A DNA stretch of 64,000 nt from a virus, in IMG/VR virus record IMGVR_UViG_3300032331_003609, positions 124,001 through 188,000 of that record; one strand, written 5' to 3'. Position 1 is the first letter of the stretch. Each line of letters begins with the position of its first letter. The notes under the pieces are model-generated. The model searched no databases, was not told where the DNA came from, and was given only the letters and a program-made list of their open reading frames with translations. Shown piece by piece: positions 19,936-61,526 of the stretch. The translations under genes and the position numbers were made by a program.

Positions 19936-20292
19936 ATGGAGTATGTTAAAAACAAAGATCTAAAAAGAGCGATATTAGAATCAAAAGAGAATGGAAAATT
20001 AACCGCAGAAACGGTTAAAATGTTTACTTTAATAGTAAATGGTCTTTCAAAAACAAAATCCTATCGGGATATTGAAGATAAAGAAGATTGCATAGCATTT
20101 GGAATGGAGGATTTAATTAAATATTGGGACAGATTTGATCCAGCTAAATCCGATAATCCATTTGCATTTATTTCACAAATTGCCAAAAACGGAATGCAAA
20201 AAGGTTGGAAAAAAATACATTCAACCAGGTCTATAAAAACCATCCCCTTTTCTAGACTTACAAGGGATGATAATCAAAATTATAATGTCTAA
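19936..20292 (+). CDS. 55: Late-transcription sigma factor, gp55-like
   Basis: A 118-residue homologue of T4 gp55, the divergent sigma that directs host RNA polymerase to late promoters. T4 gp55 is longer (185 residues). As recalled from the T4 sequence, the N-terminal EYVKNKDLKRAIL corresponds to its YVNNKELLQAII, VNGLSKTKSY to AEGLSKRFNF, and YWDRFDPAKSDNPFAFISQI to LHNFDETKYKNPHAYITQA, a sigma region-2-like core. The C-terminal part, which in T4 contacts the sliding clamp, is short here (SRLTRDDNQNYNV). The gene overlaps the next by 8 nt (ATGTCTAA). The GATATATA/TATAAATA promoters in this window are its expected targets. Confidence 0.82.
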   Translation: MEYVKNKDLKRAILESKENGKLTAETVKMFTLIVNGLSKTKSYRDIEDKEDCIAFGMEDLIKYWDRFDPAKSDNPFAFISQIAKNGMQKGWKKIHSTRSIKTIPFSRLTRDDNQNYNV

Positions 20293-20779: not shown

Positions 20780-21351
20780 TGGATTTTAAAATAGAAATAA
20801 GAGATGCTATAGAGAAAGCTGGATCCCCTGCAAAATTAGCGGAGGAAAGTTTTTTGAATTATTCAAAGAACTATGCAGTACTTACTAGTTCAGAGTCGCT
20901 TAGGAGTTTAGTTCAGGGAAAGATCTACACATTTTATTATGATTCAGATATTAAGGCAGATAAGGGATTTGTTAATAGAAGACCCGTAGTGTTCTTTGAA
21001 TCAAAAGAGATAACCCCATCAAAAAGCATAATAAAAGGAATAGACATGATCTTGCTAAGTCCAAAAGACAGAAAGAATTTCTTCATCCGATTACATTCTA
21101 TTTATGGTAAAATCATGGATCAGAACGAAAAAAGAGATAGATCTGCGCACATGCCTTTAAGATTTGACCCCTCAGTATTAGAAACTTTAATGGGAGGTAT
21201 CAAGTATAATCATGCATACACCGGATACAAAATGGAAAAAATAAAAGGATTAAAGGAAATAGAAAGAGAGGAGTGGAGATATTTAGTCTATCTAAACACC
21301 AAATCTATTGAGGGGGCTGATTTGAACGATATATACAACAAATATCAATAA
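20779..21351 (+). CDS. T4-like structural/assembly protein, unrecognised
   Basis: A 190-residue protein between the gp4 and portal genes. A central motif GKIYTFYYDSDIKADKGFVN, then RRPVVFFES, followed by 'IDMILLSPKDRKNFFIRL' and 'HAYTGYKMEKIKGLKEIERE', recalls a conserved protein of T4-like phages in which '[Y/F]-Y-D-R-x-P-L-V' precedes a hydrophobic LP-rich segment. That resemblance is from memory and tentative. Overlaps of 1 nt on both sides (TAATG type) show tight coupling with the head genes. Function unknown. Confidence 0.65.
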   Translation: MDFKIEIRDAIEKAGSPAKLAEESFLNYSKNYAVLTSSESLRSLVQGKIYTFYYDSDIKADKGFVNRRPVVFFESKEITPSKSIIKGIDMILLSPKDRKNFFIRLHSIYGKIMDQNEKRDRSAHMPLRFDPSVLETLMGGIKYNHAYTGYKMEKIKGLKEIEREEWRYLVYLNTKSIEGADLNDIYNKYQ

Positions 21352-22943
21352 TGGCAGGATTTTTAGGAGATAATAGGAGCAATCCATTTTTTAGTAACGT
21401 TCTAAATAACCTTAGAAAAATAGGTTCTTTTGGAATGAGCTATGGTGACATGGTTGTTAAAAACTCCCAAGCGGTAGGTACTACCGAGGCAATGTTCTTA
21501 AAACAGGGCGGAATTCAGGATGAAAATTTCTTATATGCTTTAAGAAAGGCAGATACCACAGCTAAACAATACATAGCTTATTTTGATAGGGATTACATCA
21601 ATAAGAAAACATATCTTAGAAGCTTTGCACTTAATCCTGAAATAGAATTTATTTTAGATACCGTTTGCGACGAAGCTATTGTATATGATGATAAAAACTT
21701 CTTTTCATATTTTGTATCAACAGATATCAAGGGTATTGGCGAAGAGATGGAACAGCAAATACAAGACAGATATAAAGAAATTTATAGCTTATTTGGCTTT
21801 AATGAAGGAATCTCTGCATGGCACTTTTTTAGGAACTTTTTAATTGATGGGATATTAGCATTTGAAATCATATTTGACTCGAGGGGAAAGAATATTATAG
21901 GATTTAAAGAATTAGATCCTGCATCCTTATTGCCTTCCGTCGAAAAACAACTTGACGGTAATTTCGTAGAATGCTGGATTCAATACCCAGACAATCCCTC
22001 TTTATCTAGAAAATTGTACGATTCACAGATTATTTATATTTCATACGCTAAGGGAAATACAACAACAAGAGTAAGTTATGTAGAAAGATTGATTAGATCT
22101 TTTAATCTATTAAGAATTATGGAGCATACCAGAGTAATTTGGAATGTTATGAATTCATCATATAGAATGACAATGACTGTTCCAGTAGGAACAAAATCCC
22201 CGCAAAAAGCAAAACAATCATTAGCTGAGCTGATGAGCATCTATAAAGAAGATATTAGTCTTAATCAAGATAGCGGTGAGCTTTTTGTGAACGGAAAACC
22301 AAACATTCAGTTCTTTAAAAATTATCTGATGCCGTCTACTCCCAACGGAACACCTGATATAACACCATTAGCAGGAAGCGGAGATGCAACACCTTTTAGC
22401 GATTTAAAAGCTTTAGCATATTTTGCAGATAAGCTTAAATTAGATTCTAAAATTCCATATTCAAGATTTGATAGAGAGGATAGAGGTACACAGGGTACAT
22501 TCAGTGGTAACGCAGAAGGATTAGATCAAGAAGAGATAAGATTCTTTAAATTCATTACAAGATTAAGATCCATCTATCAAGATATACTTCTAAAACCTTT
22601 ATGGATACAATTTTGCTTGGATCATCCAGAGCATAAAAGGGATTTTATGGTTAAGAGCCAATTCGGTTTAGATTATGTTAAAGATAATTCTTTTGCTGAA
22701 ATAAAATATATGGAGATCCTCAATGCAAGAAAAGATCAAGTAACTAAAATTGCAGGTCTTTTAGATGCTGACGGAACACCGTATTTCTCGTTGAATTATG
22801 TACTAGACAAGTATCTTGGAATGACCGATGATGATAAGATAGCTAACGAGAAAGCAAAAGAGGCAGCAGAGAAGAAGAAAAAAGAGAAGGAGAAAGAAGC
22901 AGGAGAAGCAGGAGAAGCACCAGAAGGAGAATTTAAACTTTAA
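21351..22943 (+). CDS. 20: Portal protein, gp20-like (paralogue A)
   Basis: A 530-residue portal protein of the T4 gp20 family, close to T4's 524. The portal is the dodecameric ring at one capsid vertex through which DNA is packaged and to which the neck joins. Conserved segments are EFILDTVCDEAIVYDD (near residue 100), GFKELDPASLLPS, YVERLIRSFNLLRIMEHTRV, NSSYRMTMTVPVG and DKLKLDSKIPYSRFDRE. The C-terminus is a charged Lys/Glu/Ala tail (from about 500). The first 40 residues (RKIGSFGMSYGDMVVKNSQA) are shared with the next gene. Two portal-type genes in tandem is unusual. Confidence 0.9.
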   Translation: MAGFLGDNRSNPFFSNVLNNLRKIGSFGMSYGDMVVKNSQAVGTTEAMFLKQGGIQDENFLYALRKADTTAKQYIAYFDRDYINKKTYLRSFALNPEIEFILDTVCDEAIVYDDKNFFSYFVSTDIKGIGEEMEQQIQDRYKEIYSLFGFNEGISAWHFFRNFLIDGILAFEIIFDSRGKNIIGFKELDPASLLPSVEKQLDGNFVECWIQYPDNPSLSRKLYDSQIIYISYAKGNTTTRVSYVERLIRSFNLLRIMEHTRVIWNVMNSSYRMTMTVPVGTKSPQKAKQSLAELMSIYKEDISLNQDSGELFVNGKPNIQFFKNYLMPSTPNGTPDITPLAGSGDATPFSDLKALAYFADKLKLDSKIPYSRFDREDRGTQGTFSGNAEGLDQEEIRFFKFITRLRSIYQDILLKPLWIQFCLDHPEHKRDFMVKSQFGLDYVKDNSFAEIKYMEILNARKDQVTKIAGLLDADGTPYFSLNYVLDKYLGMTDDDKIANEKAKEAAEKKKKEKEKEAGEAGEAPEGEFKL

Positions 22944-22946
22944 TAA

Positions 22947-24680
22947 ATGGCAGGATTCATTGACAATTTTTCACAGAGTAACCCAAACATGGGGCGTATA
23001 CTCAAAGCCGTAAGTAAAATCGGAAGCTTCGGAATGGAGTATAAAGATCTTGTTGTGAAAAATTCTCAAGCAATTGGGGTTTCAGAAGCAATGATGAGAC
23101 AAAAATTAGCATTAACAGATTCTGATGAGGATTTTATTTTTAGCCTTGCAGCTGCAGATACCACTAGTAGAAAATACATTGCTTATTTTGATAAAGATTA
23201 TCCATACAAAAGAGATTTTTTAAGAAGCTTTGCACTTAATGCCGAGATAGAATGGATTTTAGACATCCTTGCTGATGAAGCTATAGTTTATGATGACAGA
23301 AATTTTTGCTGCAGTCTATCACTGGTTAATATGGATCTAAAGGATGAAATAGCAGACTCATTGAGGGAGAACTTTAGAAAGATCTATGTCTCCCATGGAT
23401 TTAACAACGGAATTTCAGCTTGGCAGTATTTTAGACAATTTTTAATAGATGGATTTTTATCTTTTGAAATAGTTTATTCAGATGATGGAAAACAAATAGT
23501 AGGATTTAAAGAATTAGATCCAGTTTCATTGACCCCATCTGTAGAGAGAAACCCTGGAGGACAAACTGTTCAAATATGGTATCAGTACTATGGAGACAGT
23601 GTTAGAGAAAGAAAGCTATATGATGCTCAGGTCATATATGTTTCTTTTGCAAATGGTAATGGCACAAGCAGAACAAGTTATGCTGAAAGATTAATTAGAT
23701 CCCATAATCTTCTAAAGATAATGGAGCATACCAGAATCATTTGGAATGTTATGAATGCTTCTTTCCGATTGAAGATGACTATCCCGGTTGGTTCTAGATC
23801 TCCTCAAAAAGCAAAAGAGACATTAGGGGAATTGATGAACATGTATAAGGAGGATATTAAACTTAATACTGATTCCGGAGAATTAAGTATTAACGGACGT
23901 CCAAATTTACAATTTTATAAGAACTATCTTTTCCCTGTCCAAGGAGGAGAATCACCTAAAATAGAGACTATTAATAATGCAGGGCCAAACTTAAATGTTA
24001 TAGATGCTGTGGTTTATTTCTTCAATAAATTAAAAGCAGATTCTAAGATACCATTTAATAGATTCGCTGCTAGATCTGGTGGAACCGTAGGAACATATAA
24101 GATAGGAGCAGAATCTGCAGAAAGGGATGAAATCAGATATAATAAATTCATTAATAGAATTAGATCAATCTATCAAGAGATCATACTAAAACCATTATGG
24201 ATTCAGATGACTTTGGATTATCCTGAACTTGATAAGGATTCTATATTTAGATCCCAATTAGGGCTTAAATTTAACTCCGATAATCAGTTTGGTGAATCTA
24301 AAGAGATAGAACAACTAATTAAGAAAATAGATTTTATAGCAGGACTTTCTGAAATTAAAGAAAAGAAAGGCGAAGAAGAACTTCCTTATTTTAGCCAGGA
24401 TTTTCTTATAGATAAATTTTTAGGATTGACCAACGAAGATAGAAGGGTTAATAATATTTACAAGAAAAAGGAGGAGGAGGAAGGCAAAGCAGCAGCTGCA
24501 ATTTCAGGATCTGCTACACCAGCACCAGCAGGTGGAGGTGACACAGCAACTCCAGCAGCAGAAACTGGAGGCGATGAAGCAGCACCAGCAGCTGAAGCCC
24601 CTGCGGAAGAAGCACCAGCAGCAGAAGCCACACCAGCACCAGCACCAGCAGCAGCAGCAACAGAGACTGAAGCACCTTAA
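22947..24680 (+). CDS. 20: Portal protein, gp20-like (paralogue B)
   Basis: A 577-residue gp20-family portal protein, homologous along most of its length to paralogue A and starting 3 nt after it. Shared blocks are SKIGSFGMEYKDLVVKNSQA, EWILDILADEAIVYDDRNF, GFKELDPVSLTPSVE, YAERLIRSHNLLKIMEHTRI, NASFRLKMTIPVGSRSPQK and NKLKADSKIPFNRFAAR. The core motifs are intact in both copies, so neither looks like a pseudogene. It differs by an Ala/Pro/Glu-rich tail of about 65 residues (from about 512). This is the last gene of the head unit; the early-type ligase promoter begins 7 nt after its stop. Confidence 0.9.
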   Translation: MAGFIDNFSQSNPNMGRILKAVSKIGSFGMEYKDLVVKNSQAIGVSEAMMRQKLALTDSDEDFIFSLAAADTTSRKYIAYFDKDYPYKRDFLRSFALNAEIEWILDILADEAIVYDDRNFCCSLSLVNMDLKDEIADSLRENFRKIYVSHGFNNGISAWQYFRQFLIDGFLSFEIVYSDDGKQIVGFKELDPVSLTPSVERNPGGQTVQIWYQYYGDSVRERKLYDAQVIYVSFANGNGTSRTSYAERLIRSHNLLKIMEHTRIIWNVMNASFRLKMTIPVGSRSPQKAKETLGELMNMYKEDIKLNTDSGELSINGRPNLQFYKNYLFPVQGGESPKIETINNAGPNLNVIDAVVYFFNKLKADSKIPFNRFAARSGGTVGTYKIGAESAERDEIRYNKFINRIRSIYQEIILKPLWIQMTLDYPELDKDSIFRSQLGLKFNSDNQFGESKEIEQLIKKIDFIAGLSEIKEKKGEEELPYFSQDFLIDKFLGLTNEDRRVNNIYKKKEEEEGKAAAAISGSATPAPAGGGDTATPAAETGGDEAAPAAEAPAEEAPAAEATPAPAPAAAATETEAP

Positions 24681-37844: not shown

Positions 37845-37853
37845 GATATATAG
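37845..37853 (+). promoter_or_regulatory. Late promoter GATATATAG
   Basis: GATATATAG followed by TAAAATAAATAAAAT, beginning 27 nt before the ATG of the protease-scaffold gene. Confidence 0.72.
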
Positions 37854-37871: not shown

Positions 37872-39953
37872 ATGAGTCTTAACCCTGAATTCGTTTTGGT
37901 CTTGGAAAAATCTTCACATAACCTGAAGTCCGAGAAGAATGGTAACGAATATTATCTTGAAGGTATAGCAGCAGTGTTTGGTAAAGAGAATTCAAACCAA
38001 AGAATCTACGAGGAAAGAGAATATCTTCCCCATTTGCAATATTTAAAAGAAAAGATAGAACAAAAAAGATTAGTAGGTGAATTAGATCACCCTAAGGAAT
38101 TTGATGTGTCTTTAAAGAATATTTCACACCTAGTTGAAGAGCTTGCTTATGATCAAGAGAATAGAACTTTAAGAATTAAAGTTAGACTTTTAGATACACC
38201 AGCAGGTAAAATAGCTAAATCTTTAGTTGATGCTGGTATTCCAGTTTCTATCTCATCAAGAGCAGCAGGCAACGTGATGGAAAACAAAAAAGTACAAATT
38301 AAGAAGATTTTTACCTATGATCTAGTTGCTGATCCTGGATTTGAGAATGCTCAATTAGAAAGAGTTTACGAAAGCTATGGATACAATCTTAACGAAAAGT
38401 CAAAAAATGAATCCATTTTAAATGGTCTTCCTTTGATGAACGAAAGCTTAGGATTAGAAAATGATTCAAATTTTAAGATATATAGAATCAAAGATCAAGA
38501 TAAGATACAAAAGCTTCTAGATAAGGAGCCAAATAAGAGTTTAATCATGGAAAATAATTTCGTTACAGCGGAAGAAATGAATGGATATTCTAAACTAATC
38601 AAAAAAGAAATGGACACTATTAAAGGGTCTATTGAATCATTGAAAGGGATTAAAGAATCTTCCAAAATAACAGAATCATCTTCTCTTGAGGAAAGAGTTG
38701 GTAAGTTAGAAAAGTATGCTGATTATTTAGCAGAAAACCTAGAGGCATCTATTAAGTATGGTGAATACCTAGCTGAAAATTTAGAAGATTCAGTTTCTTA
38801 TTCTAAGTATCTTGCAGAGAACCTAGACAAATCTATTTCTTATGCAAAATATCTTGCTGAGCATTTAGATCACAATATCTCTTATTCTGAGTACATTGCA
38901 GAGAACGTTGACAACAACGTAACAGCAGTTAAAGGTCTAACAGAGAAAGTTGATCAATCTATTGCTTATGCAGAATATGTAGCAGAGAACGTAGACAAGA
39001 ACATTAAGTATAGCGAATACCTTGCTGAAAACTTAGATAAGAACATCTCTTATTCTGAGTATCTTGCTGAGAACGTAGATAAGAACATTTCTTATTCTGA
39101 GTACTTAGCAGAAAACCTAGATAAAGGTTTAGCTTATAGCGAATACTTAGCTGAGAAATTAGATAAGAACATTTCTTATTCTGAGTACTTAGCAGAAAAC
39201 CTAGATAAAGGTTTAGCTTATTCTGATTATCTTGGTGAGAACCTAGATAAGACAGTTCATTACAGTGAGTATATCGCTGAAAAATTAGCTAACAACATCA
39301 GCTATGCAGAATACATCGCTGAGTCTGTAAATGCAGCTTCAGGAACCGCAGAGGTAAAAGAAGCAGTAACAAAAGCAATTTCTGAAAACACAAGAACTTC
39401 AGGATATGCAGGAGATTACACAGAGATCTCTTCTAAAATTGACAATTTATTGAACACTGTCGGTAAACAAAAGACAGAAGAAATAGCAGAAAATAAGAAC
39501 TATCCTTTCTTAAAGCTTATGGGCGAACAAGGACAAAGAGAATTTTTATCACTGCACGAAGGCCAAAAACAAAAGGTCGCCAAATCCTTAAACGAAAACA
39601 ATTACTCATCCGAAAAAGAGGTAGTTGAAATTATGGGTAAAACTCTGAATGAGCAAAATCAATCCGGAGAAAAATTCCTAGATTTAATGCCAGAAAAATA
39701 CAAAACTACATGGGAGAATATGAATGAGTCTCAAAAGGCCTCTATATTAGCTCAAAGTAAGTTTCATAAATTGGATACTCCTTACCAAATCCAGAATTTC
39801 TGGGCTACAAGAGGTATTGCAGTTACCAAGGCAAATATCGAAAGAATAGACGAATCCCAAGAACAAATAACCGCAGCTCCTCAGCCAAAGGGAATATCTA
39901 GAGAATATTTAGATAATCTTTCTGAAGCTTTAGCTGTTAGGTTTAAAAAATAA
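37872..39953 (+). CDS. 21: Prohead protease (gp21-like) fused to repeat-containing scaffold
   Basis: A 693-residue protein. Residues about 25-160 are a T4 gp21/S78-type prohead serine protease: VGELDHPKEFDVS (H73), LLDTPAGKIAKSLVDAGIPV, SISSRAAGNV (catalytic serine 128 or 129) and TYDLVADP (D150). T4 gp21 is only 212 residues. Here, after a linker with possible self-cleavage sites (NLNE|K, LMNE|S), residues 281-490 hold fifteen 14-residue units of the type YSEYLAENLDKNIS, then a helical C-terminus. T4 encodes the core scaffold gp22 separately just after gp21; no separate gp22 gene is seen here, so this part probably is the scaffold. The capsid protein gene follows 15 nt downstream. Confidence 0.85.
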   Translation: MSLNPEFVLVLEKSSHNLKSEKNGNEYYLEGIAAVFGKENSNQRIYEEREYLPHLQYLKEKIEQKRLVGELDHPKEFDVSLKNISHLVEELAYDQENRTLRIKVRLLDTPAGKIAKSLVDAGIPVSISSRAAGNVMENKKVQIKKIFTYDLVADPGFENAQLERVYESYGYNLNEKSKNESILNGLPLMNESLGLENDSNFKIYRIKDQDKIQKLLDKEPNKSLIMENNFVTAEEMNGYSKLIKKEMDTIKGSIESLKGIKESSKITESSSLEERVGKLEKYADYLAENLEASIKYGEYLAENLEDSVSYSKYLAENLDKSISYAKYLAEHLDHNISYSEYIAENVDNNVTAVKGLTEKVDQSIAYAEYVAENVDKNIKYSEYLAENLDKNISYSEYLAENVDKNISYSEYLAENLDKGLAYSEYLAEKLDKNISYSEYLAENLDKGLAYSDYLGENLDKTVHYSEYIAEKLANNISYAEYIAESVNAASGTAEVKEAVTKAISENTRTSGYAGDYTEISSKIDNLLNTVGKQKTEEIAENKNYPFLKLMGEQGQREFLSLHEGQKQKVAKSLNENNYSSEKEVVEIMGKTLNEQNQSGEKFLDLMPEKYKTTWENMNESQKASILAQSKFHKLDTPYQIQNFWATRGIAVTKANIERIDESQEQITAAPQPKGISREYLDNLSEALAVRFKK
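38712..39341 (+). repeat. 15 x 42-bp coding repeat in scaffold region
   Basis: Fifteen tandem 42-bp units encode the 14-residue consensus [S/K]Y[S/A]EYLAEN[L/V]DK[N/S]I. Unit 6 (TAVKGLTEKVDQSI) is degenerate; units 8-13 are most alike, some nearly identical in DNA. There are no insertions between units. Confidence 0.85.
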
Positions 39954-39968: not shown

Positions 39969-41726
39969 ATGCAACTTATCAATCAACATGAAATCTATGA
40001 AACCTGGGCACCAATATTGGAAAGCAAAACAGGTATTCAAGAGAGAGGTAAATTAGACTGGTTAACTAAATACTGTCATTACCACTCATTAAACGAATCT
40101 GCCGGAGCGTATAACTCTTTAGGCGTATTAAACGGTATGGGCCAAGTATCTCCTGCTTCTAACGTAGGTTTATCTGGCGGTCCTGCTGGCTTTTATGCAG
40201 GCGGATCTTATTCTGGAACTGGTCTTGGTTCTGGCGATAAATTCCCTTCTCTTTTACCTTTAGCTATTCAAGTAGCTGCTAAAACAGTAGGTTTTGATAT
40301 CGTTCCAGTTATCCCAATGAGCGGTCCTACAGGCGTATTATCATACTTAGACTATGTTTACGCAGGTGGTAAATTATCTGGTACTGACTCTGTATCTCCA
40401 TACACAGCAAACACTCCAGATTTAATTAAAGTTCCAACAACAACAGCTTCTCCAGTTACTGGTTTAGCAGTAGGAACCACTTACCTTTTAGGTGCTTCTG
40501 GTCTTTCTTCAACAAAAGACTTAGACTCTGCAGGTGTAGGTGCTTTAGTAGCTGGTAAATTCGTCGGTAGTTCAAGAATCGATGGTTTCCCAATTTTCCA
40601 AGTGGTAGCATTAACTGTAGGTTTCTCTATTGCTGACGCAATCGGGGCAGACGCAGTTATTTACTCTGGTTCATATAATACAGGTACAAAGGTTTATACA
40701 ATCTCTGCAACAGTAGGATATGCAAACGGTGCTGCTCAATTAGTTAAAACTTTAGAAGATCACGTACAAGGATTTACTGGTTCTGGCGTTGCTAACGACG
40801 GTACATGGTCTGGTCCTTATGTAGACGGTACTAAAGCTTACGATCCAATGTCAAGAGGAACTGCAGAAGGCACTTACTTCAAGTCATTAGGTCTTTCTAC
40901 ATTCACTAAGTTTGTAGAGGCTGGTACATTCCAAGTTGCTGCTTCTGTTACAACTGAGCAAATCCAAGATTTGAACAAGCAATTCGGTATCGACGTAGTT
41001 TCTATGATCGAGAACGCACTTGTTAACGAGGTTTCTCAAGCGATCAACAAGCACATCTTATCTAGAGCATTTGCTTTAGGTTGGTCTAACCACTATGAAT
41101 TTGCAAACACCGAATTAGGTGGAGCATCTTCTGCTTCTCTAAACATCAATTTAAATATTGGTTCTGGTGGAGCTTCAACCGCATCTTTCATCGGTAAGGA
41201 CAATGGATCTTTAACAATCTATACTCCTGGCGATATTGCTACAGGCGGATACGAGAACCAATCAACTGTACAAAGAAGATTATTCTCAAGAATCTTGGCT
41301 GCTGCTAACGTAGTAGCAAACAGAGGAAGAAGAGGACCTGCTAACTTTATTGTTACTAACGCTCAGGTAGCTTCTGCTTTACAAGATATTTCACAATTCA
41401 CATTTGCTCCTTTTACAAACACGTTAACTCAAAATAACGGTACTTTATATCCAGTTGGTTCAATCGCTGGTATGACCGTTTATGTTGATCAAAACATGTC
41501 TTTTGGCGATACGAGAGTATTAGTTGGAAGAAAAGGTGCTGATGACGAACCAGGTATGAAATTTATGCCTTACATGATGGCTGAGTCAATTCAGACTATC
41601 TCTGAAGGTACAATGTCACCTAAAATTGCAGTTAAGTCTAGATACTCTTTAGTAGAGGCTGGACATCATCCTCAAACAATGTACTTATGCTTCAAAGCTA
41701 TAGTACCTGCAACTGGTATCGCTTAG
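39969..41726 (+). CDS. 23: Major capsid protein, gp23-like
   Basis: A 585-residue T4 gp23-family capsid protein with HK97 fold. Conserved segments are FPSLLPLAIQVAAKTVGFDI, VPMSGPTG-like VIPMSGPTGVLSYLDYVYAG near 110, GIDVVSMIENALVNEVSQAI near 340 and RRGPANFIVTNAQVASALQD near 455. The N-terminus has the shape of a removable prosegment (ETWAPILESKTGIQERGKLD) ending HSLNE|SAGA, a predicted protease site after E43; T4 gp23 is cut after E65. A likely surface insertion lies at 150-290. A strong terminator follows. Codon use is GCT/TCT/AAC-rich compared with neighbours, as expected for a very highly expressed gene. Confidence 0.92.
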   Translation: MQLINQHEIYETWAPILESKTGIQERGKLDWLTKYCHYHSLNESAGAYNSLGVLNGMGQVSPASNVGLSGGPAGFYAGGSYSGTGLGSGDKFPSLLPLAIQVAAKTVGFDIVPVIPMSGPTGVLSYLDYVYAGGKLSGTDSVSPYTANTPDLIKVPTTTASPVTGLAVGTTYLLGASGLSSTKDLDSAGVGALVAGKFVGSSRIDGFPIFQVVALTVGFSIADAIGADAVIYSGSYNTGTKVYTISATVGYANGAAQLVKTLEDHVQGFTGSGVANDGTWSGPYVDGTKAYDPMSRGTAEGTYFKSLGLSTFTKFVEAGTFQVAASVTTEQIQDLNKQFGIDVVSMIENALVNEVSQAINKHILSRAFALGWSNHYEFANTELGGASSASLNINLNIGSGGASTASFIGKDNGSLTIYTPGDIATGGYENQSTVQRRLFSRILAAANVVANRGRRGPANFIVTNAQVASALQDISQFTFAPFTNTLTQNNGTLYPVGSIAGMTVYVDQNMSFGDTRVLVGRKGADDEPGMKFMPYMMAESIQTISEGTMSPKIAVKSRYSLVEAGHHPQTMYLCFKAIVPATGIA

Positions 41727-52842: not shown

Positions 52843-53430
52843 ATGAGCCCCTTTCTAGTAATAGCTTATTATACCTTAGGAAACCCTTACCAGCAACTCT
52901 CGGAAAATCTTACAAAATCTTGTAAAGAATTTAATCTACCCCATTTTTTAAAACCAATAGAAGACTTAGGGTCTTGGGAAAAGAACACACACTATAAAGC
53001 AAACTTTATCAGTGACTGTTTAGAAAGATTCTCAGAAAATCTAGTTTATGTAGACGTTGATGCAGAGTTTAAAAGATATCCAGATCTATTTGAATCTTTA
53101 GATTGCGATATAGCATACAGGACAGAGAATTTTAGATGGAGACAGAACGAAGCTTTAAGTGGAACAATCTTTATAAGAAATAATGATAAGGTAAGATCCC
53201 TAGTTAATCTTTGGAAATCGATCAATGAATTAACCCCAGCTATCAGAAATAAGCCAGACACATGGGAACAGGCTAATCTGCAAAGGGCAACCCAACAGAG
53301 CCCCGAAATAATCTATGAAAATCTGCCGCCGGAATATACCTATATTTTTGATCATACAAAAACAATGTATCCTAGTATTTCTCCAGTGATAGAACACTTT
53401 CAAGCATCTAGAAAATCTCGATCAAATTAA
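52843..53430 (+). CDS. Glycosyltransferase-like protein (DxD)
   Basis: A 195-residue protein with a nucleotide-sugar transferase pattern. An N-terminal strand (FLVIAYYTLGNPYQQL) is followed by ENLVYVDVDAEFKRYPDLFE near residue 66 with a DxD metal/sugar-nucleotide motif, then DIAYRTEN and ALSGTIFIRNNDKVRSLVNL near 105 (compare 'G-x-[I/M]-[F/Y]-F-[R/K]-N' of GT-A proteins). It resembles the first half of the next gene product, which shares the WMDCDTDF-type motif. Sugar and acceptor are unknown. First gene of the glycan locus. Confidence 0.65.
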   Translation: MSPFLVIAYYTLGNPYQQLSENLTKSCKEFNLPHFLKPIEDLGSWEKNTHYKANFISDCLERFSENLVYVDVDAEFKRYPDLFESLDCDIAYRTENFRWRQNEALSGTIFIRNNDKVRSLVNLWKSINELTPAIRNKPDTWEQANLQRATQQSPEIIYENLPPEYTYIFDHTKTMYPSISPVIEHFQASRKSRSN

Positions 53431-53463
53431 CAATAATGAGGATTTTGGATCATAAACATGAAT

Positions 53464-53472
53464 GATATATAA
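53464..53472 (+). promoter_or_regulatory. Late promoter GATATATAA
   Basis: GATATATAAAAAG begins 26 nt before the ATG at 53490. It probably drives much of the glycan operon, since the genes downstream overlap or nearly touch. Confidence 0.7.
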
Positions 53473-53489
53473 AAAGCGTAACCCATAGA

Positions 53490-54620
53490 ATGTTATCAGG
53501 AAAAATAAGTAAGATACGAAAAATTTGGAATCCTATTAAGGATTTTATTAAACCCGAATTGGATATAAATGATACCCCGAAGAATCCGGGTGTTACCGGC
53601 AATACATCAAACGTTACTGTTAAACATAAGATCATCAGCTATTATGCTGATTATGAAGAAAGAAAATATTATAAGGGATTTGCCAAAGCACTTATAGAGA
53701 GGTGCAAAGGATTTGGCTTGGACTATGATATTGCAGAAATTGAATCCAGAGGAAACTATGGAGATAATTGTCTAATGAAGCCTGAGTTTATCCTTGAAAA
53801 ATTAAAGCAGTATAAAAAACCTCTAATATGGATGGATTGCGACACCGACTTTAGAGAGCCGTTTGATCATTTCAATGAGGTTACAGAGGATATAGGAATG
53901 GCAACTCATAGCGGGAATATTGAGGGAATCAAAGCATCCCCCTTATATTTAAATTACACTAAAGGTGCTTTTAGAATAATAAGAGAGTGGGTGATTCATT
54001 GTAGAGAATGTTATGATAATGGTATAGTCGAATTAGATCATGACGCATTAAAGCACTACGTACTAGATACAATTAAAGGATCATATTCGATATACATACT
54101 AAATAAAAATTGGAACGACTTTGTACATGGGCGTTATATTTGGAATGGGAACTCAAAAGTCGAAGGCAAGGTACAGACCCATAGACAGGTAGGTGTTACA
54201 GATGATGTAAGAAGATCCTACTCACAAAATGCTAAGACATTTAAAATTATATTCAAATCGGAGACACCAGAGGATTTTAAATCTGGGTTGATCTTCTTAG
54301 ATCAATTTTCAGATAGATCCAGAATTAATTTTATTTTTAAAAAGAAGCTTTTAGCCGAATCTATAGATAATGATGATTTTGCTAGACTTAAAATAGAATC
54401 TGGCGGATTGATATACTTTGATCCCTCCGTTCTTGATTCTATTGAACCAGGAAAATCCGATATTATTATAGAAGCTACAAACGTCACAAGCATAGAGCAA
54501 GATTGGGATCTTAAAATTATATCGAGTATAGACACGGAACAAAATCCACTTGATGATTTATTTTTTGATTCAAAAGAAGGGGGAGTTAGAATAAAAACAT
54601 ATAAAAAACTATGGAGCTAA
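53490..54620 (+). CDS. Glycosyltransferase-like protein with C-terminal extension
   Basis: A 376-residue protein. Residues about 45-245 form a GT-A-like domain: KHKIISYYADYEERKYYKGF, KKPLIWMDCDTDFREPFDHF (DxD near 115), MATHSGNIEGIKASPLYLNY and LDHDALKHYVLDTIKG. Residues about 250-376 are a separate domain (KIIFKSETPEDFKSGLIFLD; KLLAESIDNDDFARLKIESG) of unknown role. It overlaps the next gene by 10 nt. The late promoter at 53464 shows that the glycan locus is, at least in part, expressed late. Confidence 0.65.
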   Translation: MLSGKISKIRKIWNPIKDFIKPELDINDTPKNPGVTGNTSNVTVKHKIISYYADYEERKYYKGFAKALIERCKGFGLDYDIAEIESRGNYGDNCLMKPEFILEKLKQYKKPLIWMDCDTDFREPFDHFNEVTEDIGMATHSGNIEGIKASPLYLNYTKGAFRIIREWVIHCRECYDNGIVELDHDALKHYVLDTIKGSYSIYILNKNWNDFVHGRYIWNGNSKVEGKVQTHRQVGVTDDVRRSYSQNAKTFKIIFKSETPEDFKSGLIFLDQFSDRSRINFIFKKKLLAESIDNDDFARLKIESGGLIYFDPSVLDSIEPGKSDIIIEATNVTSIEQDWDLKIISSIDTEQNPLDDLFFDSKEGGVRIKTYKKLWS

Positions 54621-55471
54621 TAAAAGGCATAGGAATGCCATTTCCTGAGAATTATTCTTCATGCTCTAATCTGCCGCCAAAAGAATTTTGCTGGACTAGT
54701 AAGGAGGGTATAGCAGATATCTATATTGATGATAAAATAATGGACGGGTTACAAACTCCTAAGAGTAATTCTAAATTTGGATGGCTTTGTGAATCTAGAG
54801 AGATCGCTATAGATATTTTTAATACTATATTACAAAATCCTAAAAAATTCAAAGAAAAATATGCAGGTATTTTTACGTGTGATGAGACTTTATTAGGGTG
54901 TGATTCTTTATTCATATATGCACCACCAGGATCTAATCTTCCGTGGACCAAGCCTGAAGAAATATCAATTTATGAAAAAAGTAAACTATGCTCTATGTTA
55001 TGCTCGCCTAAGGCAAGAACAGAAGGGCATAAACTCAGACTAGAAGTAGCAAAGACCCTAATGAATAGATTGGATTTATTCGGAGGTGCCCATGGATCCC
55101 CTAGAATAGGTGAGGGATTTGGACCAAAGCAGGATTGGTGGAGATCTAAATTACCAGCTTTAAAAGATTACATGTTTTCAATTGTTTTCGAAAATGCTGT
55201 TTATGACAAGTATTACACTGAAAAAATAACAGACTGTTTTGCAACAGGGACAATTCCAGTTTATTGGGGAACTAAAAAAGTGGTAGAGGATTTTAATTCT
55301 GATGGAATTATATTTTATGATGAACTGGGTTCAATAGAAGATCTAAATGAAGAATTATATCTTTCTAAATCAGATTCAATCAAAGATAATTTAGAAAGAG
55401 TCAGATCATTAAAGTCTGGAGATGATTGTGTTTATTCTGCTATAAAAACAATTCAAAATGCAGAAAAATAA
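54611..55471 (+). CDS. GT10-family fucosyltransferase-like protein
   Basis: A 286-residue glycosyltransferase with the C-terminal signature of family GT10 (alpha-1,3/4-fucosyltransferases): YMFSIVFENAVYDKYYTEKI at 187-206, then TDCFATGTIPVYWG at 207-220, the donor (GDP-fucose) binding region. Upstream, LDLFGGAHGSPRIG near 155 and FTCDETLLG near 88 fit the GT-B layout. It is shorter than cellular GT10 enzymes. GDP-fucose synthesis genes lie in the same locus (60591, 61523), so donor and transferase are encoded together. It overlaps its neighbours by 10 and 14 nt. Confidence 0.85.
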   Translation: MELIKGIGMPFPENYSSCSNLPPKEFCWTSKEGIADIYIDDKIMDGLQTPKSNSKFGWLCESREIAIDIFNTILQNPKKFKEKYAGIFTCDETLLGCDSLFIYAPPGSNLPWTKPEEISIYEKSKLCSMLCSPKARTEGHKLRLEVAKTLMNRLDLFGGAHGSPRIGEGFGPKQDWWRSKLPALKDYMFSIVFENAVYDKYYTEKITDCFATGTIPVYWGTKKVVEDFNSDGIIFYDELGSIEDLNEELYLSKSDSIKDNLERVRSLKSGDDCVYSAIKTIQNAEK

Positions 55472-56096
55472 AACTATCTTAGTAACCCAATTTTACATTC
55501 CCGATGACGTTAAAAGATATCAGGAATTAAAGTATTGTGTGAAAGAGAATATTTCCAATACACTAATAGATCAAATTGTTTTGGTTGTTGAAAGGGGAAC
55601 TTCTGATAGACTGATCCCATTCCACGAGAAAATAAAAATTAATTGGATAGAAAATAGGCCAACATACCAAGATCTTTTTAAGATAGCAAAAAAAACACTC
55701 GGAAACAAAAAAGGATTAATGGTAATATCTAATAGTGATATTTTTTATGATGAAGATTGTATTTCTAAAATGTATGAAAAAATTTCCAATCAAGAACCCC
55801 TAGCCCTTTCAAGATGGGAATTCAAAATAGGAAGCAACCCGGTTCATCATGATACTTGGGACAGTCAAGATACGTGGGTGTTTAAGGATTATATTCTTCC
55901 TGGAAAATATGCTATAAATTTAGGAATACCTGGATGTGATAACAAAATAGCTTACGAGCTTCAAAAGGCTGGATATATGGTTAAGAATCCATCTAAGTCT
56001 ATAAAATCCTATCATTATCACACATCAGAGCATAGAACATATAATGAAGAAGATAGAATTTCTGGACCTTATCTTTTTATAAACACTGAAGAATGA
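55458..56096 (+). CDS. Glycosyltransferase-like protein
   Basis: A 212-residue protein with GT-A features: NKTILVTQFYIPDDVKRYQE at the start, DQIVLVVERGTSDRLIPFHE near 40, and GLMVISNSDIFYDEDCISKM near 86, where SDI-[F/Y]-[Y/F]-D serves as the DxD-like site. A C-terminal HYHTSEHRTYNEEDRI is also seen. Members with this layout act on cell-surface or capsular glycans. The acceptor is unknown. It overlaps the next gene by 4 nt (ATGA). Confidence 0.65.
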   Translation: MQKNKTILVTQFYIPDDVKRYQELKYCVKENISNTLIDQIVLVVERGTSDRLIPFHEKIKINWIENRPTYQDLFKIAKKTLGNKKGLMVISNSDIFYDEDCISKMYEKISNQEPLALSRWEFKIGSNPVHHDTWDSQDTWVFKDYILPGKYAINLGIPGCDNKIAYELQKAGYMVKNPSKSIKSYHYHTSEHRTYNEEDRISGPYLFINTEE

Positions 56097-56743
56097 GTAA
56101 AATAGATTTAAAAAAAATAACTGCGGTTTGTATAGACGGAAGACCCTATGATAAAGAAAGGTATGAGAGGTATAGTGTTATTCTTAATTTCTTTCTAACA
56201 AACGCGGAATTTACATCTATACAAATGATATCCACACACGATCCAGAAATAGAAGGTGTTTCTCATACAAGAATAAAAGAATTTGGAATATCTGATTATT
56301 CAAGATTCTGCTTGCATCATTTATCAGATTGGGTTAATTCTGAGTTTTGCCTTATTTTTCAGGATGATGGATTTATACTCAACCCTAGTTTATGGAACGA
56401 TTCTTTTTATGAGTATGATTATATAGGATCTCCTTGGCCTCTTTATATAGGTTGGCCGGTAGAGGGACAACAAGTAGGAAATGGTGGATTTTCACTCAGA
56501 AGTAAAAGGCTTTTAGAATTTACTAAAACATTTACCGGGCACACCACTGAGAATGAAGACACCTATATAATTTCTGCTAAAAGAAAAGATATAGAAGATG
56601 AAGGATTAAAAATTGCTCCTTTAGAAATTGCTCGACTTTTTTCGATTGAGAATAGTTTAGACCCCGAGCATCGTTTAGATACATGCTTTGGATTTCACGC
56701 CAAGCATTTATTAGATGATGCAATAAAAATGATACAACAATGA
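56093..56743 (+). CDS. DUF5672-like glycosyltransferase
   Basis: A 216-residue protein matching the DUF5672 family, found in polysaccharide loci and large phages. The motifs are ITAVCIDGRPYDKERYERYS, then SEFCLIFQDDGFILNPSLWN (QDDG near 93 as DxD), YDYIGSPWPLYIGWPVEGQQ and VGNGGFSLRSKRLLEF near 132 (the 'GNGGFSLRS' acceptor motif). It ends with CFGFHAKHLLDD. It overlaps both neighbours by 4 nt. Role: sugar transfer, specificity unknown. Confidence 0.8.
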   Translation: MSKIDLKKITAVCIDGRPYDKERYERYSVILNFFLTNAEFTSIQMISTHDPEIEGVSHTRIKEFGISDYSRFCLHHLSDWVNSEFCLIFQDDGFILNPSLWNDSFYEYDYIGSPWPLYIGWPVEGQQVGNGGFSLRSKRLLEFTKTFTGHTTENEDTYIISAKRKDIEDEGLKIAPLEIARLFSIENSLDPEHRLDTCFGFHAKHLLDDAIKMIQQ

Positions 56744-57468
56744 AAGTAATGGCATATTATCCAGTTCACTATGGAGCTGAGTATTTTAATGCATCTATTA
56801 AATCAATAGATGAACAGGTTGAGAAAATCCTAATTCTTTATACGCCTAAACCTAGTTATGGCCACGGAACAGAAAAGCAATGCCCGGAAACAGAAGATGA
56901 ATTAAAAGAGATAGCATTTGGATCTTCCAACAAAATAGAATGGGTGACAGTAGATGCTGGTAATGAAGGAAATCACCGGGCATTAGCATTTACCAATGCA
57001 TCTGAATATGATATCATGCTAACTCTAGATACCGATGAGGTTTGGGAGTCTACTTCTTTAGAAAGATGTATTCAAGAAGCATATGACGGAGAAGCATGGA
57101 GAAGAAATATTTCCGGATTTATTCATTTTTGGAAATCTTTCAATTGGGCATGTCAAGATGGTTTTGAGCCTGCTAGAATTTTTAATCTAAAAAGAAAAAA
57201 TAATTTAGAGGTTCCAATTAACGGTACAATCTATCATTTTGGGTATGCTCAATCTAAAAAAATAATGGATTACAAGTTTGATATTCACGGACACAAGAAT
57301 GAACTTAAAGAAGGATGGTTAGAAAATACATACTATGGATGGGAACCTGGAAAACTAGATCTTCATCCAACATGTGGGGTTTGGCCAGAAGCTAAACTGT
57401 TTGATAAAAACACACTCCCTGATATTTTAAAATCACATCCAAATTTTGATAAAGAAATAATTTCATGA
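56740..57468 (+). CDS. GT2-like glycosyltransferase
   Basis: A 242-residue protein with a GT-A fold pattern: MKVMAYYPVHYGAEYFNASI at the start, IEWVTVDAGNEGNHRALAFT near 67, and EYDIMLTLDTDEVWESTSLE near 90 with the D-T-D metal motif. HGHKNELKEGWLENTYYGWE lies towards the C-terminus. It is in the overlapping glycan operon (4-nt overlaps on both sides). Substrate unknown. Confidence 0.72.
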   Translation: MKVMAYYPVHYGAEYFNASIKSIDEQVEKILILYTPKPSYGHGTEKQCPETEDELKEIAFGSSNKIEWVTVDAGNEGNHRALAFTNASEYDIMLTLDTDEVWESTSLERCIQEAYDGEAWRRNISGFIHFWKSFNWACQDGFEPARIFNLKRKNNLEVPINGTIYHFGYAQSKKIMDYKFDIHGHKNELKEGWLENTYYGWEPGKLDLHPTCGVWPEAKLFDKNTLPDILKSHPNFDKEIIS

Positions 57469-58400
57469 GAAAAAAGCTTTTATACATTCCTTTAGATTAT
57501 TGTAGACATGCTGAGAGTGATTCAATATTTAACTCCATGTTATCTGGATTTAATACCCAATTTGAAGCTCGTGTTTTTAAAAATATGGAGGAATCTATTT
57601 TATTTAATCCGGACCTTGTTTATATGCACGGTAATGCCATTTCGATTGAAGAATGTCATTTGCTTAAAAAATCAACTAATGCTTTTTTTACCATATGGGT
57701 AGGTGACGTTAGATATGCACCTTTACCCGAGGCAATGAGCATGATTGATGTTGCAAATCTCTATTTATTTCCATTTAAAGGAGAACAATTAAAATCTTTT
57801 TCCCGAATCCTTAATACACCTTGTGAATATCTTTTTGAGGTATTTGATGATAGGCAGATTAGAGATGTAAAGGAGATATCTTCTGGAAGAATAGTATTTG
57901 TTGGCAATGTTTATGAGCATTTTCCAGGGGGTGAAGAAAGAATATCTCTCGTAAAATTTATTGGGAAACATGCTCCTGAATTAGAGTATTATGGATCATT
58001 CCCATATGAGAGTAATTCAGCAAAAGGGGGAATAGATTTCTCAAATGTTCCAGACTTATATAATTCATCATATTTAACTATTGCACATAATAATAGAAAT
58101 GATATAGATGGGTATTTTACTCACCGTAACTTAATAGCGCTAGCATCAGGCTCATGTGTATTGATGAAATATTTTCCTGGTATAGAGGAATTCTTTATTA
58201 ATTGGGAGCATTGCGTTTATTATAAAACAAATTATGAATTATTGGATGTAATTGAATTTTTAAAAAGAAACCCAGACATAAGAAATAAAATTGCTAAAAG
58301 CGGAAATACATATGTTAGGGAAAATTATCTAAATGCTAATTTTGCCTATAAGTATAATGAAATTTTAAATAAAATAAAAAAGCTAAATCATGAAAGATAA
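57465..58400 (+). CDS. GT-B glycosyltransferase, CgeB-like
   Basis: A 311-residue protein resembling CgeB / GT4-type transferases. The N-terminal domain contains RKKLLYIPLDYCRHAESDSI and PDLVYMHGNAISIEECHLLK. The C-terminal donor domain contains GRIVFVGNVYEHFPGGEERI near 145, YLTIAHNNRNDIDGYFTHRN near 204, then LIALASGSCVLMKYFPGIEE and a final NKIAKSGNTYVRENY helix. This is the usual 'fvGn...R...la.G.cvlt..' layout. Acceptor unknown. It overlaps the methyltransferase gene by 11 nt. Confidence 0.75.
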   Translation: MRKKLLYIPLDYCRHAESDSIFNSMLSGFNTQFEARVFKNMEESILFNPDLVYMHGNAISIEECHLLKKSTNAFFTIWVGDVRYAPLPEAMSMIDVANLYLFPFKGEQLKSFSRILNTPCEYLFEVFDDRQIRDVKEISSGRIVFVGNVYEHFPGGEERISLVKFIGKHAPELEYYGSFPYESNSAKGGIDFSNVPDLYNSSYLTIAHNNRNDIDGYFTHRNLIALASGSCVLMKYFPGIEEFFINWEHCVYYKTNYELLDVIEFLKRNPDIRNKIAKSGNTYVRENYLNANFAYKYNEILNKIKKLNHER

Positions 58401-58917
58401 AATAAAAAAATATTCTCTCCATTGGGCTTTAGGTGGAAATGATGCGAACGGAGGACTGGAACAAAATGCTTATGAACTTGAAAAGCTTTGTGAATTTATA
58501 AAGGAAAAAAATATTAAAACCTACACAGAGATAGGGTGTGCTGCTGGACAGCTCCTAAGATTTATGAGGGATGAATTTGAACTTGATACAACGGGAATTA
58601 CTTTAGAACCAAGGGATACTCATAAAGATCTACCCATAATACACGGAAGTTCCAGAGATCCTGAAATAATAAAAACTGCAAAGCCGTGTGATCTTTATTT
58701 CATAGACGGAGATCATTCTTATTTAGGAGTTAAATCTGATTATTTGAATTATAAAGGTCTTTGTAAATACATGGCATTTCACGACATATTAGGGCAAAGA
58801 GACTGTGAAGGGGTTTCCCAATTTTGGAATGAAATAAGAAATGAATATGAATTTATAGAATTTATAGATCCTAATAGGGATATAGCTAGTGGAATCGGAA
58901 TTATTAAAATAATATAA
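58390..58917 (+). CDS. SAM-dependent methyltransferase
   Basis: A 175-residue class I methyltransferase. Motif I is YTEIGCAAGQLLRFM near residue 45. DLYFIDGDHSYLGVKSDYLN near 100 is the 'fiDGdHsY' signature of Methyltransf_24 / CmcI-type enzymes acting on sugars or small molecules. MAFHDILGQRDCEGVSQFWN follows. In a glycan locus it most likely O-methylates a sugar. It precedes the epimerase by 2 nt. Confidence 0.82.
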   Translation: MKDKIKKYSLHWALGGNDANGGLEQNAYELEKLCEFIKEKNIKTYTEIGCAAGQLLRFMRDEFELDTTGITLEPRDTHKDLPIIHGSSRDPEIIKTAKPCDLYFIDGDHSYLGVKSDYLNYKGLCKYMAFHDILGQRDCEGVSQFWNEIRNEYEFIEFIDPNRDIASGIGIIKII

Positions 58918-58919
58918 AA

Positions 58920-59954
58920 ATGGAAACTGTAATTATAACCGGATCCTGTGGATTAATTGGAAGTGAAGCTGTTAAATTCTTTCATACACAAGGATTTAAA
59001 ATAATTGGAATTGATGATGATTCTCGAGCTAAATTTTTTGGAAAAGAAGCAAGTACAAATGGGATGCTTTCTCAATTAAAAGAACTTAAAAATTACCAGC
59101 ATCTTTCAATTAATATTTCATCTTATCAAGATCTACAGACTAGTTTATCCAGCATTAAAGATTTAAAGATGATTATTCATACAGCTGCTCAACCTTCTCA
59201 TGATTGGGCAGCAACAAATCCGTTTGCAGATTTTAATGCAAATGCACTTGGTACCTTAAACATGCTAGAAATAACAAGAAATTATTTTCCAGAGGTAGTT
59301 TTTATCTTTACTTCTACTAATAAAGTTTATGGAGATTTACCTAATACTATAACAGAATACACAGAATCTAATTCTAGATTTAATCCGGTTAATTCTGATT
59401 TTATAGAAAAAGGAATTAACGAAAACCTATCAATAGATCAATGTAAGCATTCTTTATTTGGTGTATCAAAAGCTTACGGGGATTTAATAACACAGGAATA
59501 TGGAAAATACTTTGGATTAAAAACTGGCACATTCAGAGGTGGATGCTTAACTGGACAAAATCATTCAGGTGTTAAGGCTCATGGATTTTTATCTTATCTA
59601 GTAAAATGTGCAATGACAGGAGAAAAATATTACATTAATGGATACAAAGGAAAACAAGTTAGAGATAACATACACTCTAGTGATGTTGTCTCCGCCTTTT
59701 ATGAATTTTATAAAAATCCTAATCCCGGTGAAGTCTATAATATAGGAGGAGGAAATCTTTCAAACTGCTCAATTCTAGAAGCTATTGAATTAATTCATGA
59801 AATATCAGGTAAAAGAGTAGACTATGAATTACTTGAAACACCAAGAGAAGGCGACCATATTTGGTATATTAGTGATATGACAAAATTTAGAAATGATTAT
59901 CCAAATTGGATTCAAAAATATGACCTAAGAAAAATAATAAAAGAAATGATATGA
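58920..59954 (+). CDS. NAD-dependent epimerase, CDP-paratose 2-epimerase-like
   Basis: A 344-residue extended SDR protein. The NAD-binding motif is TGSCGLIGSEAVKFF at 7-21. HTAAQPSHDWAATNPFADFN near 88, ANALGTLNMLEITRNYFPEV, and FTSTNKVYGDLPN near 128 are the specific marks of the CDP-paratose 2-epimerase (RfbE) group. The catalytic pair is in SLFGVSKAYGDL, where F replaces the usual Tyr of YxxxK at that spot, so activity should be checked. RDNIHSSDVVSAFYEF follows. No CDP-paratose pathway is seen in the window, so the true substrate is uncertain. It overlaps the next gene by 4 nt. Confidence 0.78.
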   Translation: METVIITGSCGLIGSEAVKFFHTQGFKIIGIDDDSRAKFFGKEASTNGMLSQLKELKNYQHLSINISSYQDLQTSLSSIKDLKMIIHTAAQPSHDWAATNPFADFNANALGTLNMLEITRNYFPEVVFIFTSTNKVYGDLPNTITEYTESNSRFNPVNSDFIEKGINENLSIDQCKHSLFGVSKAYGDLITQEYGKYFGLKTGTFRGGCLTGQNHSGVKAHGFLSYLVKCAMTGEKYYINGYKGKQVRDNIHSSDVVSAFYEFYKNPNPGEVYNIGGGNLSNCSILEAIELIHEISGKRVDYELLETPREGDHIWYISDMTKFRNDYPNWIQKYDLRKIIKEMI

Positions 59955-60580
59955 TTAGTATAGTTTTTCCCCACGCTATGAACAAAGAGAATGATGCGGT
60001 TCTCCAATTGAAATTAAAAATGTTAGAAGAGAATTCCACTTACCCCTATGAGGTTATGGTTTTATCCAACACAGGAAGACCTGATTTAGTTTATGAATCA
60101 TGGGATTGGATGATGAGAAGAGCTAAATATGACCTGGTTCTATGGGATAATTCAGATATAACATATGCTCCAAAATTCATGGATAATATTATCAAACACA
60201 AAGATGATGCAGATTGGTTAGGACTCGAATTAATTGAATGTGGAGCCATAGGAGTGGCTGCAACCAACATCCATCAAGATTTTGGAAGAACAGCAAATTC
60301 TTTCAATAGATCAGAATTTGAAAAATGGGTGGAAGAATATTCTAAAGATCGCCCATCAATAAGAGAAGGATTTTGCTGGTACTCTCCTTCAGTTTGGAAG
60401 AAAGAATGGTACATTAAAATAGGTGGTTTTAACTTCTCAAAGCCATTTCCTCACCCGAATGATTCTGAGTTTAGAGAGAAGTGTATAGCAGCAGGATCAA
60501 CATTTGCTGTTGTTAATTCTTTTGCATATCATTTTCAAAGAGCAGGAGAAAATAGGGGAGAAAAACCAGAAAGAGAATAA
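59951..60580 (+). CDS. Glycosyltransferase-like protein
   Basis: A 209-residue GT2-like protein: MISIVFPHAMNKENDAVLQL, YPYEVMVLSNTGRPDLVYES, KYDLVLWDNSDITYAPKFMD near 56 (D-N-S-D as the metal site), GFCWYSPSVWKKEWYIKIGG and FPHPNDSEFREKCIAAGS near 165 (compare the 'xEDxdxxxR' helix of GT2). It lies between the epimerase and GDP-fucose synthase. Specificity unknown. Confidence 0.7.
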   Translation: MISIVFPHAMNKENDAVLQLKLKMLEENSTYPYEVMVLSNTGRPDLVYESWDWMMRRAKYDLVLWDNSDITYAPKFMDNIIKHKDDADWLGLELIECGAIGVAATNIHQDFGRTANSFNRSEFEKWVEEYSKDRPSIREGFCWYSPSVWKKEWYIKIGGFNFSKPFPHPNDSEFREKCIAAGSTFAVVNSFAYHFQRAGENRGEKPERE

Positions 60581-60590
60581 TCAATGATAT

Positions 60591-61526
60591 ATGAAAAAAA
60601 ATATTGCAATATTTGGATCAACAGGATTAGTTGGTTCTAACATTCTTAAAAAAATAGACACCGAAAAATATAAGGTTTATGCTCCTTCGAGAAAGGAGCT
60701 AGATCTTTTCGATCAGGAAAAGGTCCTAGATTGGTTCTTTGAAAATAAAATGGAATATGTAATCATTGCAGCTGCTAGGGTTGGAGGAATAGTTGCTAAT
60801 TCAACATACCCTACAGAATTCTTGCATGAGAATCTCACAATCCAAAATAATATTATAATGTCTGCTTTAAAGAGCGATGTCAAAAATCTTATATTTCTAG
60901 GATCTTCTTGCATTTATCCGAGAGAATGCCCACAACCAATTAAGGAAGAATATCTACTAACTGGTCCTTTAGAGAAGACAAATAAATCCTATGCCTTGGC
61001 AAAGATTGCTGGTATTCAATTATGTGATTCGATCAAAGAACAATACGGAAATAATTACTATTCTTTAATGCCGTGTAATCTTTATGGTCCGGGTGATAAT
61101 TTTGATCTAGAAGCTTCCCATGTTATTCCGGGAATGATTAGAAAAATTGAAAGCGCTAGAGACAACAATCAACCAACGCTTAAACTACTCGGAACAGGAA
61201 GACCCCTTAGAGAATTTCTTTATGTGGAAGATCTAGCAGAAGCTGTAATATTCATGTTAGAAAACTATAACGGAAAAGATGGTTTAATTAACGTTGGAAG
61301 CGGTTCTGAAATCACGATAAAAGATCTAGCAAATATAATTTCACGTGTCATAGGATATAAAGGTGAAATTCTTTTTGATACTGAGGGATTAGACGGAACA
61401 CCCAGAAAGGTAATGGACAATTCTAAAATAGAATCGCTTGGATGGAAACCCCAAATGACATTAGAAACAGGAATAACCGAAACAGTAAAATGGTATTGGG
61501 ACAATAAGGATAAAATTAGAAAATGA
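60591..61526 (+). CDS. fcl: GDP-L-fucose synthase
   Basis: A 311-residue SDR enzyme of the Fcl/WcaG family, carrying out the epimerisation and reduction of GDP-4-keto-6-deoxymannose to GDP-L-fucose. FGSTGLVGSNIL at 8-19 is the NADP-binding motif. AARVGGIVANSTYPTEFLHE near 60 is a strong family signature. SSCIYPRECPQPIKEEYLLT near 104 and SYALAKIAGIQLCD near 131 (Y-x3-K) supply the catalytic residues. CNLYGPGDNFDLEASHVIPG is also conserved. Its length is normal for the family (about 310-320). It overlaps gmd by 4 nt, giving the usual gmd/fcl pair. Confidence 0.92.
   Translation: MKKNIAIFGSTGLVGSNILKKIDTEKYKVYAPSRKELDLFDQEKVLDWFFENKMEYVIIAAARVGGIVANSTYPTEFLHENLTIQNNIIMSALKSDVKNLIFLGSSCIYPRECPQPIKEEYLLTGPLEKTNKSYALAKIAGIQLCDSIKEQYGNNYYSLMPCNLYGPGDNFDLEASHVIPGMIRKIESARDNNQPTLKLLGTGRPLREFLYVEDLAEAVIFMLENYNGKDGLINVGSGSEITIKDLANIISRVIGYKGEILFDTEGLDGTPRKVMDNSKIESLGWKPQMTLETGITETVKWYWDNKDKIRK

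Follow-up and report, generated by a model that had tools for sequence, protein, structure and literature searches.

In bacteriophage T4, the prohead protease and the scaffold are encoded by two separate genes, 21 and 22, which lie in the order portal, protease, scaffold, and capsid. The gp21-type protease cleaves capsid and core proteins after (L/I)xE. A late promoter, TATAAATA, is located exactly at the protease/scaffold boundary, where it overlaps the gene 21 stop codon and lies 35 nt upstream of gene 22. T4 uses about 576 gp22 to 100 gp21 (PMC5694885). Separate protease and scaffold genes are also found in P-SSM7, PA5oct, BF, and PAU, and TATAAATA precedes gene 22 in P-SSM7 and BF as well.

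Another arrangement is found in lambda C/Nu3, where the nesting is translational, and in Mu I/Z, where there is an internal start. Lambda, P2, and Mu each encode protease and scaffold in one gene (PMC8508860). In herpes simplex virus, the UL26 product of 635 residues is cut at the R site after residue 247, and the nested UL26.5 makes the scaffold alone; UL26-derived scaffold (VP21) is about 10% of the total (PMC12474303).

The stretch of DNA analyzed here (64,000 nt, the window) is part of a 245-kb jumbo-phage fragment. It has the T4-like gene order, and its protease and scaffold-like region are found in one reading frame. The features of the locus are as follows.

37845..37852, + strand: GATATATA element, likely late promoter, 27 nt before the fused gene; found before the protease gene in 47/47 clade relatives
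37872..39953, + strand: fused prohead protease-scaffold gene, ATG start, 693 aa
37929..38366, + strand: gp21-type (S77) protease domain, residues about 20-165, catalytic H73 and S128 (Pfam/PHROG, hhalign, Foldseek)
38436..38444, + strand: [LIVM]-N-E site, residues 189-191 (MNE↓S), predicted self-cleavage between protease and scaffold; N190 and E191 in 53/53 relatives
38477..38484, + strand: internal GATATATA, codons 202-205, candidate promoter of a nested scaffold gene (clade and codon-level conservation)
38547..39953, + strand: nested scaffold reading frame, 468 aa, from the internal ATG (Met226, in 53/53 relatives)
38715..39344, + strand: fifteen 14-residue units (YSEYLAENLDKNIS), residues 282-491, predicted helical (unit scoring; low-confidence AlphaFold helix)
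39405..39821, + strand: conserved helical C-terminal domain (MPxxYxxxWExLNESQKxSIxAQS...FWxTR), common to PTm1, pT24, and, weakly, Lak
39969..41726, + strand: major capsid protein, gp23 family (Pfam Gp23 7e-39), with a conserved HSLNE↓SAGAY site at residues 41-43

Elsewhere in the window, two adjacent T4-like portal (gp20) genes (21351-22943 and 22947-24680) are both strong Pfam matches, although one portal protein is normally enough for a phage head. At 9616-15941, ORFs resembling tail fibres carry long GTSGSSG repeats of a collagen-like type. A cluster of putative glycosyltransferase and nucleotide-sugar genes, recognized by eye in the translations, is found at 52843-62530.

The initial annotation described this locus as a protease with H73 and S128/129 joined to a scaffold-like region in one 693-residue reading frame directly before the capsid gene, with a helical end after the repeats and a possible cleavage motif near residues 175-195. 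As observations on the sequence, these points are borne out. The reading frame is exactly as claimed, and the gp23-type capsid gene starts 15 nt downstream of it. Pfam Peptidase_S77 (PF03420) matches residues 20-140 (E=7.6e-9, 35.8 bits vs the curated cut-off of 27), and PHROG 207, 'head maturation protease', matches the fused protein at 1.9e-35. In the hhalign profile alignment, H73 pairs with H85 of T4 gp21 and S128 with S140. In an AlphaFold model of the fused protein, which is of modest confidence (mean pLDDT 55), the T4 gp21 structure 5jbl is the first Foldseek match (prob 1.00, E about 5e-8, TMt 0.61-0.63), and herpesvirus proteases are among the next, weak matches. These profile searches and this model identify the N-terminal part of the 693-aa protein as a prohead protease of the T4 gp21 type.

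Relatives of this protein are encoded in at least 465 IMG/VR stretches, of which 80 were kept. The conservation set consists of 53 non-redundant sequences (below 95% identity), 47 of which form the window's clade; these sequences are mutually related, and counts among them do not represent independent events. H73, S128, and S129 are invariant in the set. All relatives have one open frame, and the combination of protease and scaffold-like region is kept in more than 50 of them. At the junction, the motif found is MNE, whose N and E are invariant and are mostly followed by S. It matches the conserved LNE↓SAGAY site of the capsid protein, and the NE at residues 190-191 is likely the point of self-cleavage.

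Note that several other ORFs of the window (starting at 34557, 35315, 41829, 42941, 43780, and 51401 on the + strand, and at 51323 and 50331 on the - strand) have a similar short N-terminus, in which an aromatic/F... part is followed by LNE, FES, IES, or TEG. These N-termini resemble T4 capsid-targeting sequences, and the ORFs may encode head-packed proteins.

Downstream of the junction, the fifteen repeat units described earlier are in register, and in that sense 'uninterrupted' is right, but unit 6 is degenerate. Fourteen units score 8-44 bits at a spacing of 14, and the degenerate in-register unit (residues 352-365) completes the fifteen. No repeat unit is found in 200 shuffles of the fused protein, and a repeat array with a period of 42/84 is also detected at the DNA level. 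AlphaFold predicts helix for the repeat region with pLDDT mostly 36-60, and no fold is claimed. Pfam matches of the repeat (PSCyt2, LTI65, or similar) and its Borreliella plasmid matches were taken as chance results of low complexity.

The helical end is a C-terminal domain, whose helices are modelled at pLDDT about 80. It matches PTm1 (prob 94.7, E 6e-8) and pT24 (prob 71.6, E 3.5e-5), and weakly Lak (1e-3). A structure search found no match for it among solved folds; in BFVD it matches two proteins, one of 657 aa from an uncultured phage, named 'T4 prohead protease', and one of 389 aa from a virus. As it is shared in this way, the C-terminal domain marks the fused family, and the middle part is exchanged between its members.

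Fused proteins are found in many large phages. The best named relatives are huge phages of 462-735 kb (LR756500-504 and LR745206), and others are PTm1 (564 aa), pT24 (527 aa), and Lak (584-586 aa). In Flavobacterium phage MaF61, the fusion that contains the protease is 1404 aa long and bears 17 [LIMV]NE motifs (L010 5908-10122). Therefore the fusion as such is not new; it is widespread but unremarked in public records. The named huge phages, PTm1, pT24, and Lak resemble the window's phage in the fusion and in the related C-terminal domain. Their middle parts can differ. The 14-mers are found in the window's clade and most huge phages and are largely degenerate in LR756500, while the middle part of Lak is acidic and lacks 14-mers. 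PTm1 has its own 16-residue (48 nt) repeats in the scaffold region (L009 6826-7055), which suggests more than one origin for repeat scaffolds. A genome scan with PTm1 found no relative, and protein scans with Lak and PTm1 gave one close relative each, too few for a test of nesting; the reading of a nested start given below covers the window's clade.

Repeat number had also been thought capable of influencing head size. Regular repeats whose number varies by whole 14-residue units would suit such a ruler. The number of units is 12, 11, 12, and 11 in phages of 735, 642, 636, and 635 kb, 12-13 in contigs of 430-434 kb and 13 in contigs of 343-373 kb (IMG/VR contigs may be incomplete), and 15 in the window's clade; Lak (about 540 kb) has none. 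The count does not rise as genome size rises. Its relation to genome or contig size is flat to opposite, even if several contigs may be incomplete, and it is very unlikely that repeat number sets head size.

No separate gp22-like ORF exists between the protease and capsid genes. Two gp22 PHROG profiles find no match in the 245-kb record, a weak search since the record is a fragment and control genomes barely respond. Comparison of the scaffold part with the scaffolds of T4/P-SSM7, BF/PA5oct, and PAU detects no similarity (hhalign E 0.04-0.4). Because a sequence relation to gp22 is absent, the scaffold was assigned by its position, helical nature, cleavage sites, and shared C-terminal domain rather than by homology. 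As expected of a gp22-type scaffold, this part lies between the protease and capsid genes, is predicted to be helical, and has LxE sites. The earlier reading that there is no separate gp22 gene is nevertheless not supported, since the internal ATG and promoter-like element suggest that the scaffold gene is nested in the protease gene rather than missing.

The internal ATG encodes Met226, the sole methionine kept in 53/53 relatives. It sits in a weakly conserved linker, preceded by residues that are free to change (I, L, N, T, S, and others); after it comes E, D, or N, and then mostly N or K. The 24 nt upstream are A-rich (0.56 vs 0.39 gene-wide), like those of other starts of this phage. No Shine-Dalgarno sequence is found at the internal ATG, nor at normal starts.

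The GATATATA element is observed 18 times in the window vs 5.4 ± 2.6 expected, and 46 times in the 245-kb record vs 22 copies of the reversed pattern. Most copies are located 17-31 nt upstream of an ORF start on the same strand, including those of the portal gene, the fused gene, and several structural genes (e.g., 7514, 17401, 21328, 29022, 34534, 37845, 41805, and 53464 on the + strand; 50357 and 49686 on the - strand). By its position and frequency, GATATATA looks like a late promoter element of this phage. Two sigma-70-type proteins encoded in the window (5103-5726 and 19936-20292) are candidate readers of the element.

In each of the 47 members of the window's clade, GATATATA occurs exactly once in the gene, in frame and 67-79 nt upstream of the Met226 ATG. 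At about 70 nt, this spacing exceeds the usual 17-31 nt and has a single precedent, the copy at 35242, which is 73 nt from the ORF start at 35315. Conservation of the element is seen at the level of codons. At codon 202 the amino acid varies (K, Q, M, R) while the third base G is kept, with AAG, CAG, ATG, or AGG in nearly all sequences. Ile203 is ATA in 52/53 (ATA makes up 21% of Ile codons overall) and Tyr204 is TAT in 53/53 (66% overall); no other conserved Ile or Tyr column among the 53 sequences has such codon bias. The measure of synonymous variation was codon entropy, relative to expectation, among those sequences that have the same residue. It is lowest in the gene at residues 193-228 (0.59 vs 0.88 elsewhere; Mann-Whitney p=1.8e-5, treating codon columns as independent), with the minimum at residues 196-207, where the DNA reads GATATATA. 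Huge phages L001, L002, L004, L005, and L024 keep just ATATAT of the internal element and L003 lacks it, so the case for a nested promoter is firm in the window's clade alone.

The invariant internal ATG and the conserved in-frame promoter-like element point to probable expression of a scaffold-only protein inside the gene, from ATG 38547 behind the element at 38477-38484. The gene should therefore yield the 693-aa protease-scaffold protein and a more abundant 468-aa scaffold. On these grounds it is quite probable that the locus is two genes in one, a 693-aa fusion and a nested 468-aa scaffold, with the maturation route proposed below.

A simpler possibility is a single fused protein that keeps protease and scaffold always at 1:1 without a nested product, the fusion alone coupling scaffold removal to maturation. 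One open frame in all relatives and an invariant cleavage motif between both parts agree with this. However, it leaves the invariant Met226, the in-frame GATATATA, and the drop in synonymous variation upstream unexplained, and in T4 the ratio is about 6:1 (PMC5694885). Since T4 needs about 576 gp22 per 100 gp21, it would be odd for a fusion to hold the two strictly at 1:1. Such a single product is improbable. The coupling of scaffold removal to maturation by a fused enzyme, as first suggested, keeps part of its force, as the one frame and the invariant junction NE would let the parts separate, but a nested product is expected too. With two promoters on one gene, a scaffold excess like that of T4 would be obtained.

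The internal element may instead be the promoter of the downstream capsid gene only, Met226 being kept for a reason of the protein. The capsid gene has no GATATATA of its own in 48/53 loci, and T4 too has TATAAATA inside gene 22, upstream of gene 23. In the comparison of sequences before the capsid gene, the pattern ATATATAG was not a clean control, since it overlaps GATATATAG, and was left out. Yet the scaffold start is the better fit for the element, which precedes an invariant ATG by about 70 nt and the capsid start by some 1.5 kb; moreover, residues before Met226 are unconstrained and the A-rich 24 nt before the ATG resemble other starts. A role for the capsid gene alone is accordingly unlikely. 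Because no such element precedes the capsid gene in those 48 loci, scaffold and capsid may both depend on the internal promoter; in the five huge phages L001-L005, where the internal element has drifted, ATATATA precedes the capsid gene.

The reading of a fusion with a nested scaffold leads to the following route. Transcription from the element at 37845 would produce the 693-aa protein, in which a helical repeat scaffold follows the gp21-type protease. The element at 38477-38484 inside the coding sequence would give a shorter 3'-coterminal transcript, which encodes the 468-aa scaffold from ATG 38547 and would continue into the capsid gene, which in the window's clade has no element of its own. 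A few fused molecules would join the core through their scaffold part and carry the protease inside the prohead. The repeats may make up an extended amphipathic helical rod of about 210 residues that packs into the core, and the C-terminal domain probably holds the capsid protein, presumably by direct contact. Upon closure of the shell, the protease would release itself at [LIVM]NE↓S (residue 191), dice the scaffold, and cut the capsid protein at its LNE↓S site, and the core would exit. The sequences themselves show the fusion, the repeat array, the identity of the protease, the conserved internal promoter-like element with its start, and the conserved cleavage motif, while the production of both proteins, their ratio and amounts, the processing, the rod, and the contact with the capsid protein are inferred from them.

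The locus resembles T4 genes 21/22 in the protease fold and catalytic residues, in the gene order, and in the promoter at the protease/scaffold boundary. It differs in that T4 has two separate genes, a scaffold without detectable relation in sequence, and no 14-residue repeats. With herpesvirus UL26/UL26.5 it shares a protease-scaffold fusion and, as predicted here from sequence, a cleavage site between both parts and a scaffold-only product from an internal start, while those are animal viruses with a protease of another subfamily. Lambda C/Nu3, Mu I/Z, and P2 O also obtain protease and scaffold from one gene, but their proteases are of other families and they have no 14-residue repeats; compared with lambda, the window's clade also conserves a promoter-like element. 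In the simplest history, the stop codon between the two genes was lost, and the promoter and start of the scaffold gene were retained. It is fairly likely that this large, uncultured T4-related jumbo clade has a nested scaffold gene with its own late promoter in the coding sequence, that the two promoters set the protease:scaffold ratio, and that a design like UL26/UL26.5 was reached by loss of the gene 21 stop with the gene 22 promoter and start kept.

A nested scaffold would explain how far more scaffold than protease can be made despite the fusion, and it would show in concrete terms how two T4 genes could become a nested gene like that of herpesviruses. By this reading, the protease gene of some giant phages may conceal the scaffold. 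The test based on reading frame and codon variation can be used to find nested scaffolds elsewhere, and GATATATA is a candidate late promoter element for a poorly studied group of jumbo phages.
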